The notes below the pieces were generated by a model. That model was not told the origin of the DNA, did no database searches, and worked only from the letters and a program-made list of their open reading frames with translations. The position numbers were made by a program, and so were the translations under genes. 64,000 bases of DNA from an uncultured beta proteobacterium (lineage in GTDB: Bacteria > Pseudomonadota > Gammaproteobacteria > Burkholderiales > Burkholderiaceae_C), in NCBI GenBank assembly GCA_903909815.1, contig CAIVXG010000247.1:1-64000 (forward strand), given 5' to 3'. This document shows positions 54,857 through 57,731 of this stretch, one piece after another (position 1 is the stretch's first letter; each line of letters begins with the position of its first letter).

Positions 54857-55522
54857 ATGTACCTACCATCCCAATTTGCCCCCAAGGACCGCACGCACGC
54901 GCTGGAGTTGCTGCGCACGCACGCTTTTGCCAGTCTGATCAGCAGCGACGACGAGGGCACACCCTTCGTGTCGCATATCCCGCTGCACCTGGAAGATCGC
55001 ACCGCAGCGGGGGCGCCGGCCCACAGTGACTGGGTGCTGTTGGGCCACGTGGCCCGGGGCAACGCCCATTGGCGCTACCTGGAGTCGCGGCCGCGGGCTC
55101 TCGTCACGTTCATGGGGCCGCACGCCTTCATGTCCACGCGGGTCTATCCCGATCTGGTGCGGGTACCGACCTGGAGCTACCTGGCCGTGCATTGCACGGT
55201 GCAGGCGCGCCTGGTCAACGAGCCCGATGCCAAGGACCGCTTGTTGAAAAAGCTGATCGCCGACCATGATCCGGTCTACGCCGAACAATGGCGCGGCTTG
55301 AGCGAGGACTACGCCGGCAAGATGTTGTCGGCGATCGTGGGCTTTGAATTGCAGGTCACGGATGTGCAGTGCAAGATCAAGCTCAATCAGCATCGCCCCG
55401 AATCCCACGCCAGGATGCACGAGCTATACGCGGCTGGCAGCGAAGACGAGCGCGCGCTCGCACAATGGATGGAGCGGCTGGGTTTGACCGGCGTCGAGAA
55501 GGGCCAGGGAGGCCCAGCGTGA
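54857..55522 (+). CDS. PaiB-like FMN-binding protein
   Basis: 221 residues. Starts MYLPSQFAPKDRTHALELL and shows the PaiB flavin-reductase-like fold: FASLISSDDEGTPFVSHIPL, GHVARGNAHWRYL, ALVTFMGPHAFMSTRVYPDL and VPTWSYLAVHCTVQA, then a helix pair with GFELQVTDVQCKIKLNQHRP. Named a negative transcriptional regulator in Bacillus, but its biochemical role is likely flavin or heme related. The TGA overlaps the next GTG start. Confidence 0.88.
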   Translation: MYLPSQFAPKDRTHALELLRTHAFASLISSDDEGTPFVSHIPLHLEDRTAAGAPAHSDWVLLGHVARGNAHWRYLESRPRALVTFMGPHAFMSTRVYPDLVRVPTWSYLAVHCTVQARLVNEPDAKDRLLKKLIADHDPVYAEQWRGLSEDYAGKMLSAIVGFELQVTDVQCKIKLNQHRPESHARMHELYAAGSEDERALAQWMERLGLTGVEKGQGGPA

Positions 55523-55761
55523 AGGGACTGTTCGGACTGGTGGGTCTGCTGCTGACGCTGGCCGTCGTCGGCGTGTTGGTGAAGCAGCAGCTCGCCGCCA
55601 ACCGGGATATCATGCCGTCACGGCAGGTGCCTGGCGCAAGTAGCGCAGAGGGCACTCCCAGCGCTCCCACAGGCCCGGTGACGGATCAGGCCCAACAGCA
55701 GGTGCAGCAGGCGCTGGACGCCGCAGCGCAAAAGGCGCGGGTCGAACCGGACGAAAAATAG
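55519..55761 (+). CDS. Small single-helix membrane protein of unknown function
   Basis: 80 residues. A hydrophobic helix at 3-22 (GLFGLVGLLLTLAVVGVLVK) and a soluble part rich in Gln/Ala/Pro with a predicted helix (QAQQQVQQALDAAAQKA). The GTG at 55519 overlaps the PaiB-like stop and lies within the GTGA pattern seen elsewhere. No recognised family. Six bases separate it from tadA. Confidence 0.6.
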   Translation: MKGLFGLVGLLLTLAVVGVLVKQQLAANRDIMPSRQVPGASSAEGTPSAPTGPVTDQAQQQVQQALDAAAQKARVEPDEK

Positions 55762-55767
55762 CGCGGC

Positions 55768-56769
55768 ATGACCGATTCCCGTTTCATGCAGGCCGCCATC
55801 GCGCTGGCGCGAGAGGCCCTATCCGCGGGTGAGGTCCCGGTCGGAGCGGTGGTGGTGAAGGACGGTTTGATCATTGCCCACGGCCGCAATGCGCCGATCA
55901 GCGCGCACGACCCCACCGCCCATGCGGAAATCGTGGCCTTGCGTGCCGCTGCCAAAGCATTGGGGAATTACCGGCTGGAAGGCTGTGAATTGTTCGTCAC
56001 GCTGGAACCCTGCGCCATGTGCGCCGGCGCCATGTTGCACAGCCGCCTGAAGCGCGTGGTGTATGGCGCGAACGACCCCAAGACCGGTGCCGCCGGATCG
56101 GTTCTGAACCTGTTCGACCAGCCCGAGTTGAACCACCAAACGCTGGTGCAAGGGGGCTTGCTGGCCGACGACTGCGCCGCCTTGCTCCGCAGCTTTTTTC
56201 GAGGCAGGCGCGAGGCGCTCAAAGGCACAGCGTCCCCACTTCGGGAAGACGCACTGCGCACGTCTGAAGCCTGCTTTTCAGGCCTGAACGATTACCCCTG
56301 GCCGCCGCGCTATGTGCTTGACCTGCCGACCCTGTCGGGCTTGCGCCTGCACTACCTGGACGAAGCCGCGGCAGCAACGCCCGCGCTGACCTACCTTTGT
56401 CTGCATGGCCCCGCAAGTTGGAGTTACCAGTTCCGCGCGCAGATCCCGTCATGGTTACGCCAAGGGCATCGCGTCGTGGCGCCGGACCTGATTGGCTTTG
56501 GCAAAAGCGACAAGCCGAAGAAGGCGGAATTTCACACTTTGACGTGGCAGCGGCAGGTGCTGAGCGAGTTGGTCGAGCGCCTGGATCTGCGCCAGGTCGT
56601 GCTGGTGGTGACACCCTGGAGTGCGTTGTTGGACCTCCCTGCGACCGCGCCGCAGCGTTTTATTCAAGTCGAAATGATGGACGCGGCGCAGCCCCTGCCT
56701 GGAGCGGGAGACGAAGCGCCGTATCCGGACCATGGACATCGCGCCGCGCTGCGTGCGTTTGCGCCATAG
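55768..56769 (+). CDS. tadA: tRNA adenosine deaminase TadA fused to a decayed alpha/beta-hydrolase domain
   Basis: 333 residues. Residues 1-150 form a complete TadA (A34-to-inosine editing): zinc ligands H52, C82 and C85 with the proton-shuttle E54 (PTAHAEIVAL, PCAMCAGAM). A linker (about 150-175) leads to an alpha/beta-hydrolase start resembling haloalkane dehalogenases (LHYLDEA, CLHGPASWSYQFR, VVAPDLIGFGKSDKP). The nucleophile segment, normally QDWGG-like, reads VTPWSALLDL (282-290). The cap and C-terminal core are absent apart from a short YPDHGHRAALRAFAP end. The TadA half should work; the hydrolase tail looks inactive. Confidence 0.88.
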   Translation: MTDSRFMQAAIALAREALSAGEVPVGAVVVKDGLIIAHGRNAPISAHDPTAHAEIVALRAAAKALGNYRLEGCELFVTLEPCAMCAGAMLHSRLKRVVYGANDPKTGAAGSVLNLFDQPELNHQTLVQGGLLADDCAALLRSFFRGRREALKGTASPLREDALRTSEACFSGLNDYPWPPRYVLDLPTLSGLRLHYLDEAAAATPALTYLCLHGPASWSYQFRAQIPSWLRQGHRVVAPDLIGFGKSDKPKKAEFHTLTWQRQVLSELVERLDLRQVVLVVTPWSALLDLPATAPQRFIQVEMMDAAQPLPGAGDEAPYPDHGHRAALRAFAP

Positions 56770-56798: not shown

Positions 56799-57731
56799 AT
56801 GAGCCATATCTACATTTATTCACCTTCCAGTGCAGTGCGCGACAAGGCCGCCTTGCGGCGGGGTATTCGCCAGTTGCAGGCGCAAGGCCACGAGGTCGAA
56901 ATCGATCCCGACGCCCGCTCCAGCGCCATGCGCTTTGCCGGTGATGATGAAACGCGTCTGGCTGCCATTCACCGCGCTGGCGCCAGCGGCGCCGACGTGG
57001 CCATGATCGCCCGCGGCGGCTACGGCCTGACGCGCATCCTGCCCGGCATCCAGTACAAGCGCTTGGCCAAGGCGGTTGAGCGCGGCACGCAGTGGGTGGG
57101 TTTCAGCGACTTCACGGCGCTGCAACTTGGCCTGCTGGCCAAGACCGGCGCAGTGAGCTGGGCCGGACCTTCGGTGTGCGATGACTTTGGGGCCCAGGTG
57201 GAGGAGGATGGCTCCCCCGACGTCGTGATGCAGGCCTGCTTCGATGATTTTTTGGTGGGTCAGGGAGAGGGCGCTGGCTGGCGTGTCGCGACCGAGCGCG
57301 GTGCGCCCCTGGCGGCGGATGTCGAGGTCCGCAACGCGCTGCTGTGGGGTGGCAACCTGGCGGTGCTGGTGTCGCTCCTGGGCACGCCTTACTTTCCCGA
57401 AGTCAAGGGCGGCATCCTGTTCCTGGAGGACGTGGGCGAACATCCCTATCGAATCGAACGTATGCTGACCCAGTTGCTGCACGCCGGGGTTCTGGCGCGG
57501 CAGAAGGCGCTGGTGCTGGGCCAGTTCACCGCGTACAGGGCGGCGCCCAACGACAAGGGGTTCAAGTTTGAAACGGTGCTGCAATGGCTGCGCAGCCGCC
57601 TCAAGATCCCCGTGCTGACGAACCTGCCCATGGGCCACGTGCCGACCAAGGTGATGTTGCCGGTGGGGCGCCACGTGACGCTCACGCTGCAGCAGCGCGA
57701 CGCCTTTCTGCTGTGGGAACACGGGCACTGA
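56799..57731 (+). CDS. ldcA: LD-carboxypeptidase (peptidase S66 family), LdcA
   Basis: 310 residues. Cytoplasmic serine peptidase that trims the terminal D-Ala from recycled murein tetrapeptides. The N-terminal IYIYSPSSAVRDKAALRRGI is followed by the nucleophile Ser in WVGFSDFTALQLGLLAKT, and the Glu/His parts in GGILFLEDVGEHPYRIERML and LGQFTAYRAAPNDKGF. Thirty bases after the tadA fusion. Confidence 0.9.
   Translation: MSHIYIYSPSSAVRDKAALRRGIRQLQAQGHEVEIDPDARSSAMRFAGDDETRLAAIHRAGASGADVAMIARGGYGLTRILPGIQYKRLAKAVERGTQWVGFSDFTALQLGLLAKTGAVSWAGPSVCDDFGAQVEEDGSPDVVMQACFDDFLVGQGEGAGWRVATERGAPLAADVEVRNALLWGGNLAVLVSLLGTPYFPEVKGGILFLEDVGEHPYRIERMLTQLLHAGVLARQKALVLGQFTAYRAAPNDKGFKFETVLQWLRSRLKIPVLTNLPMGHVPTKVMLPVGRHVTLTLQQRDAFLLWEHGH

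Follow-up and report, generated by a model that had tools for sequence, protein, structure and literature searches.

In the window, i.e., the whole 64,000-nucleotide stretch of DNA analysed, an open reading frame on the + strand (55768–56769, starting with ATG) specifies a protein of 333 amino acids in which a TadA deaminase is continued by the shortened remnant of a haloalkane dehalogenase. Relatives in the Comamonadaceae carry this fusion with a complete dehalogenase, catalysis has been lost from it repeatedly, and the erosions in separate lineages spare the same small set of residues, suggesting that the leftover tail took on a new job. On balance, we favour the interpretation that the window tail is an exapted pseudo-dehalogenase module, maintained by selection and with some contact to TadA and/or tRNA.

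A TadA Protein with a Shortened Dehalogenase Tail

The TadA profile NF008113 covers residues 3–153 of the window protein with 202.5 bits (cut-off: 150), the HAE and PCAMC (PCxxC) zinc motifs are present, and the predicted structure superposes on E. coli TadA (1z3a) with a Z score of 25.1 and an rmsd of 1.3 over 148 aligned residues. The fusion protein is the sole match at E ≤ 0.001 in the 4.9-Mb genome. Judged from the sequence, residues 1–153 are a complete TadA, the predicted tRNA(Arg) adenosine-34 deaminase, and the one copy detected in this genome; the earlier note on this DNA had rightly called the deaminase part intact. The window protein shares the deaminase domain and its zinc motifs with the TadA family (NF008113), but the TadA proteins of E. 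coli (168 residues) and S. aureus (2b3j; 159 residues) are free-standing, whereas here about 180 hydrolase-derived residues are added.

Residues 161–309 align to positions 2–151 only of the haloalkane dehalogenase model NF002043 (302 positions), and the score of 137.5 bits falls short of the curated cut-off of 265. Residues 161–307 match residues 3–150 of the HLD-I enzyme DhlA (1edb) with an E-value of 4.3e-37, so that the N-terminal half is homologous to HLD-I. The likeness to this group (NF002043; 1edb, 2xt0, 7avr) starts at DhlA residue 3, and intact fusions (see below) keep all five catalytic residues. Unlike HLD-I enzymes, the window protein has lost the nucleophile (Asp replaced by Pro), the cap Trp, the acid and the His together with the cap and the C-terminal core, and it carries Lys, His and Gly at fusion-specific sites; the Trp that follows the nucleophile position is still there.

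The earlier note had the cap and the C-terminal core missing from the attached hydrolase, in agreement with a match that ends in the first half of NF002043. Its statement that the nucleophile segment is lacking holds for the catalytic Asp, but the β5 strand and the elbow still align (VVLVVTPWSALL for VVLVVQDWGGLL). The first strands and a final piece do remain, as it said, but this final piece is the cap-exit segment PxPDxGHRAALRAF, which aligns to DhlA residues 209–222 or thereabouts, where the cap returns to the core, and not the C-terminus of the hydrolase. The other four of the five genomes searched in the genus encode the same short form, 69–79% identical almost from end to end, so that an assembly artefact is ruled out. 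The features of the locus are collected in Table 1.

Table 1. Features of the tadA fusion locus (window coordinates; residue numbers of the window protein)
Feature	Position	Strand	Evidence
TadA domain, residues 1–153, with HAE and PCAMC	55768..56226	+	NF008113 profile; model superposed on 1z3a
Linker and kept N-terminal DhlA-type part, residues 157–281: R164, GLRLHYLD, LHG..W, PDLIGFGKSDKPK, H256	56236..56610	+	DhlA 1edb match; conservation in eroded forms
Former nucleophile codon, Pro here, Asp in intact relatives	56614..56616	+	Alignments
Scar, residues 282–316: elbow degenerated, cap deleted; highest dN of all parts	56611..56715	+	Alignment, dN
Kept cap-exit motif APYPDHGHRAALRAF, residues 317–331, with fusion-specific G323	56716..56760	+	Conservation; median dN/dS 0.08 in the window genus
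Stop codon, 2 residues past the motif; hydrolase C-terminal core absent	56767..56769	+	Sequence
ldcA-like gene (LD-carboxypeptidase, S66), directly downstream	56799..57731	+	Pfam S66 domains; neighbour of tadA with or without tail

Just upstream of tadA lies a small open reading frame (55519–55761), likely to encode one membrane helix when judged by eye. Similar sequences occur in 41 of 221 loci; 37 of these lie no more than 300 nt from where tadA starts.

Intact Fusions in the Comamonadaceae and the Neighbouring ldcA Gene

A match to the fusion protein was found in 297 out of 299 genomes of the family, and many of the loci encode proteins of 453–474 amino acids that consist of TadA and a complete HLD-I enzyme. 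The whole tail of one of them (L013) matches 2xt0 (E = 7.8e-113), 7avr (E = 4.1e-97) and DhlA (E = 3.1e-96); L013 and a second intact fusion, L167, exceed the NF002043 cut-off with 321 and 327 bits, respectively, and L013 clears the TadA cut-off too. A scan of 84,980 species, one genome per species, yielded at least 569 confirmed stretches, and the genera named among the best 80 of these include Rhodoferax, Polaromonas, Limnohabitans, Hydrogenophaga, Acidovorax, Ramlibacter and Curvibacter, all of which we take to be Comamonadaceae. The TadA–dehalogenase fusion is thus widespread in this family and often intact (about 460 amino acids, with the full catalytic pentad).

The earlier note had named full-length Comamonadaceae relatives as the comparison to make, and complete fusions were indeed found there: among 181 tailed loci, 94 have all five catalytic residues, seven have three or four and 80 fewer than three, although the ratio of 94 to 80 is no prevalence, the genomes having been partly hand-picked among the matches listed (short forms and some long ones). 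The 80 eroded proteins measure 263–530 amino acids, mostly 331–423. For the analyses below, 221 loci were classified as intact (100, including the stand-alone enzyme L287 and the contig-cut rows L182, L192 and L213), eroded (93) or without tail (28, including L285 and L286, the two halves of one contig-split gene), where “intact” means five out of five catalytic residues in the locus count and at least four in the trees.

An ldcA match (over 230 amino acids) adjoins 170 of the 181 tailed loci, intact and eroded alike. In 23 of 25 tail-less loci of the family (L248–L272), ldcA follows tadA in the same orientation at a distance of no more than 270 nt. Since ldcA adjoins tadA with or without a tail, the dehalogenase is located in frame between two old neighbours.

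The tail-less TadA proteins of the L248–L272 group often end in a motif of their own, like IPTGDAIHLD, and all 24 compared have Met at TadA position 87. Three residues on the TadA side that differ between tailed and tail-less proteins (V30, G87 and L90) were considered as tail-linked and set aside: they look like clade markers, being shared by a tail-less protein from within the tailed group (G160; see below).

NCBIfam models name the fusions TadA and, for the two intact ones tested, also haloalkane dehalogenase; neither name alone fits. No description of a TadA–dehalogenase fusion was found in the literature searched, i.e., titles and abstract openings, with most subscription papers and bioRxiv outside the scope.

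Catalysis Was Lost Repeatedly

Phylogenies were inferred from the TadA domain and LdcA, leaving the tail out; 200 loci had both, 194 after identical rows were dropped. Of the 172 tailed rows, 171 group together in a single clade (FastTree support 0.71; SH-aLRT 99 in a 96-row tree). The exception, L087 (in genome G129), has an eroded tail, yet its TadA and LdcA group with tail-less genera, by transfer or by misplacement. Within the tailed clade, intact and eroded rows are intermixed, and the 96-row tree includes well-supported sisters from the same genus (L044/L116, L061/L108, L079/L129 and L276/L120). Constraining 60 eroded rows to one clade costs 876 log-likelihood units, and the AU test (p = 0.00016) rejects a common clade for the short forms. 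The well-supported branches of the quick 96-row tree force at least 10 changes between intact and eroded. On the FastTree tree, there are 31 maximal eroded clades if loss is irreversible (32 counting L087) and 24 changes if it is reversible; one of these events (L133) is doubtful, as the first alignment gives L131 and L132 three catalytic residues and the second has them among the intact forms. The eroded label is weakly clustered on the quick tree (21 out of 500 shuffles are as low). Catalysis was lost repeatedly, therefore, in at least 10 changes and with a point estimate of about 30.

The erosions could be fewer than counted if intact forms had been re-acquired by horizontal transfer, a course compatible with an exapted tail. 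That reversible counting requires 24 changes means that some of these may be regains. To such re-acquisition we give hardly any credence, since TadA and LdcA strongly reject a single eroded clade and ldcA stays next to the tailed loci, be they intact or eroded.

Residues Kept through Erosion

We scored the 86 positions of the tail at which 97% or more of 87 intact rows agree, a site being considered as kept in an event if at least half of its members have it. Numbering follows the intact reference L105; window numbers are higher by one beyond about residue 200 up to the scar, and the motif corresponds to window residues 317–331. R164, H212, D239, G242, G244, S246, D247, P249, H255 and G362 are kept in all 32 events, A162, K248, K250 and H260 in 31 and W217, P357 and P359 in 30; the window itself has a Gln at the H260 position. 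The catalytic sites, whose roles we assume to be those of their DhlA counterparts, fare differently: the nucleophile is kept in 10 events, its Trp neighbour in four, the cap Trp in six, the acid in one and the His in three. Several sites outside the catalytic set are lost as well, despite being invariant in intact forms (P215 is kept in 8/32 events, L220 in 5/32 and F257 in 3/32), and the C-terminal sites of the dehalogenase are mostly deleted in eroded forms.

The pattern GxGxSDKP(K/R) is present in 92 of the 93 eroded proteins. The PxPDxGH motif, located beyond the scar, can be recognised in one member or more for 31 out of 32 events (under a stricter pattern, 80 of the 93 eroded rows contain it), and in eight events some member ends within 25 residues of it.

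The kept residues, as hydrolase topology would have it, presumably lie around the former oxyanion and cap region. This placement, and the Trp next to the nucleophile position that is present in the window, would suit a remnant that still binds a small molecule or an anion and regulates TadA. We find such a ligand sensor very improbable: the Trp pair of the dehalogenase, which we take to be its halide site, is kept in just 4 and 6 of the 32 events, and the cap that closed the pocket is gone.

Fusion-Specific Residues and Stand-Alone Relatives

The 96 intact and 93 eroded tails were compared with 17 stand-alone HLD-I proteins of the same order, the best-scoring ones, two of which have an in-frame stop. 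K250 and G362 are each present in 100% of the intact tails, 97% of the eroded tails and none of the 17 stand-alone proteins; H255 occurs in 100% and 98% of the tails, respectively, and in two of the 17, and A369 in 94% and 94% and likewise in two of the 17. K250 and G362, absent from all the stand-alone relatives compared, thus belong to the fusion. Among the stand-alone enzymes, the closest (L296) carries His at position 255 and Ala at 369 but neither K250 nor G362. In the window protein, K251, H256 and G323 correspond to K250, H255 and G362. The linker residues P157 and R159 are not claimed as fusion-specific, as the stand-alone sequences were trimmed there.

A second family of the order (f3) has an intact TadA–dehalogenase fusion in four genomes (L291–L294), with ldcA adjoining in all four, while a fifth (G394) carries a tail-less tadA ahead of ldcA. 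The f3 fusions have stand-alone-like residues at the fusion-specific sites and a Met at the junction. A single origin of these and the fusion described so far (f1) is rejected with the stand-alone enzyme L296 included (AU p = 0.007) and is not rejected without it (p = 0.545). One stand-alone dehalogenase, L322 (in genome G504), is 68% identical to the L013 tail; it may stem from the lineage of the donor or be a tail that became detached.

The fusion-specific residues are common to intact and eroded forms and would therefore be best explained by a role that the f1 fusion acquired ahead of the catalytic losses.

Selection on the Tail, and Its Losses

For the ten sequence pairs of the window genus, dN/dS ranges between 0.12 and 0.31 for the tail and between 0.13 and 0.21 for the TadA part. 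The medians in this genus are 0.16 for TadA, 0.21 for the kept core, 0.29 for the scar and 0.08 for the motif. Across 14 eroded groups, the values are 0.08–0.35 (motif), 0.14–0.52 (core) and 0.21–0.96 (scar), as against 0–0.17, 0.08–0.26 and 0.03–0.18, respectively, in six intact control sets; as many synonymous distances are near saturation, only the contrast between these values is meaningful. In eroded forms, the scar is clearly relaxed, the core somewhat and the motif least; the motif is under purifying selection. The combination expected of an exapted pseudoenzyme, i.e., lost catalysis with other residues under selection, was thus found.

In one genome (G160; locus L284), the whole tail is cleanly gone, leaving a TadA of 155 amino acids with the ldcA start about 60 nt past its stop, although both other members fetched from that genus carry the intact fusion. 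TadA can, therefore, work without the tail, which is not universally essential. In L073, an in-frame stop interrupts the tail, and the frame remains open after it.

These two cases, together with the absence of catalytic residues, cap and C-terminus from many lineages and the weaker constraint on the core in eroded than in intact groups, would also befit a passive relic, whose substrate is gone and which decays in each lineage, the N-terminal strands remaining because nothing removed them. However, dN/dS is well below 1 for core and motif, the motif persists in nearly every event although it lies beyond the scar, and the fusion-specific residues are retained; we regard a passive relic as clearly unlikely. 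The earlier note had described the fusion as being eroded from inside. This is correct as far as the history goes, since relatives possess the entire hydrolase and the cap and C-terminal core have been lost from it; erosion that is still under way, however, is hard to square with the low dN/dS of the tail in the window genus and with the same residues outlasting about 30 erosions.

Predicted Structure and Charge

The AlphaFold2 model of the short form has a mean pLDDT of 81.5 and a pTM of 0.60 (intact form: 89.9 and 0.68). The TadA domain scores high and the region of the SDKPKK loop 57–74. Structure prediction of the tail, which the earlier note had put forward as a check, recovered part of the hydrolase sheet (pLDDT 84–94) but left the PxPDxGH motif unplaced (below 50). 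Foldseek retrieved TadA first with the short form, followed by DhlA and DpaA (7avr); in VIA-align, all 50 rows were taken up by the deaminase domain. According to the model, the tail keeps part of the hydrolase fold; the model is silent on the partner of the kept patch. The eroded forms were also examined for a strong positive charge that would point to RNA binding, and none was found: the mean net charge beyond residue 150 is +0.9.

Many of the kept residues are Gly, Pro or Asp and could hence be plain fold determinants. Together with the modelled part of the sheet and the lack of a strong net charge, this is consistent with a pure folding or solubility module, i.e., a mini α/β fold held by the kept residues that stabilises TadA without touching tRNA. 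We consider this rather unlikely, since stand-alone enzymes differ at K250 and H255, so that the fold alone does not require these residues.

A Possible Course from Enzyme to Docking Surface

The exapted module that we favour could have arisen as follows. A DhlA-type (HLD-I) dehalogenase came to stand in frame behind TadA, before ldcA. Once fused, the rim of what had been the active site (R164, H212, W217, GxGxSDKPK, H255 and PxPDxGHxA; L105 numbers) may have become a putative docking surface, packing against the C-terminal helix or the dimer of TadA and/or contacting the anticodon arm of the tRNA, a contact that might help stability or substrate handling. With the rim in this new role, the dehalogenase reaction would be dispensable, and the nucleophile, the cap and the C-terminal part would be lost wherever no substrate selected for them. 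Going by the conservation of the kept residues, the tail surface probably docks on TadA and/or tRNA.

The bold version of this proposal holds that a new tRNA- or dimer-contacting surface arose from the active-site rim of the hydrolase, that it is older than the decay and that at least 10, perhaps about 30, lineages dropped the enzyme and kept the surface; we advance it tentatively, as a conceivable rather than a probable course. Against an exapted module speak the loss of the tail in G160, the lesser constraint on the core in eroded groups, the frequent loss of P215, L220 and F257, the Gln at the H260 position in the window, the motif left unplaced by AlphaFold2, the pLDDT of just 57–74 around the SDKPKK loop, the net charge of just +0.9 and the many Gly, Pro and Asp among the kept residues, which the fold alone could explain. 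The suggestion in the earlier note of a structural or RNA-binding extension fits better than ongoing erosion, given that fusion-specific residues are kept, but the tail is without the strong net positive charge that one would look for.

For a tRNA-handling role of the tail, we take the N-terminal domain of ADAT3 as an analogy, and as an analogy only. Like the tail, that domain of the eukaryotic ADAT2/3 enzyme (PMC9643335) is an accessory domain on a TadA-type deaminase; unlike the tail, it is N-terminal and belongs to the inactive subunit of a heterodimer, and we claim no homology to hydrolases for it.

From single cases, it is difficult to work out how an enzyme is exapted into a non-catalytic partner. 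The present family comprises intact, repeatedly gutted and stand-alone forms as well as one complete loss, most of them next to the same gene, so that one can ask on which residues the new role depends and whether the new function preceded the loss of the old one. The fusions also show that an unrelated domain can be taken up and remodelled by an essential enzyme of tRNA modification. If the bold version is true, they would constitute a series of deletions made by nature, from which a newly evolved function could be mapped within the fold of an old enzyme.
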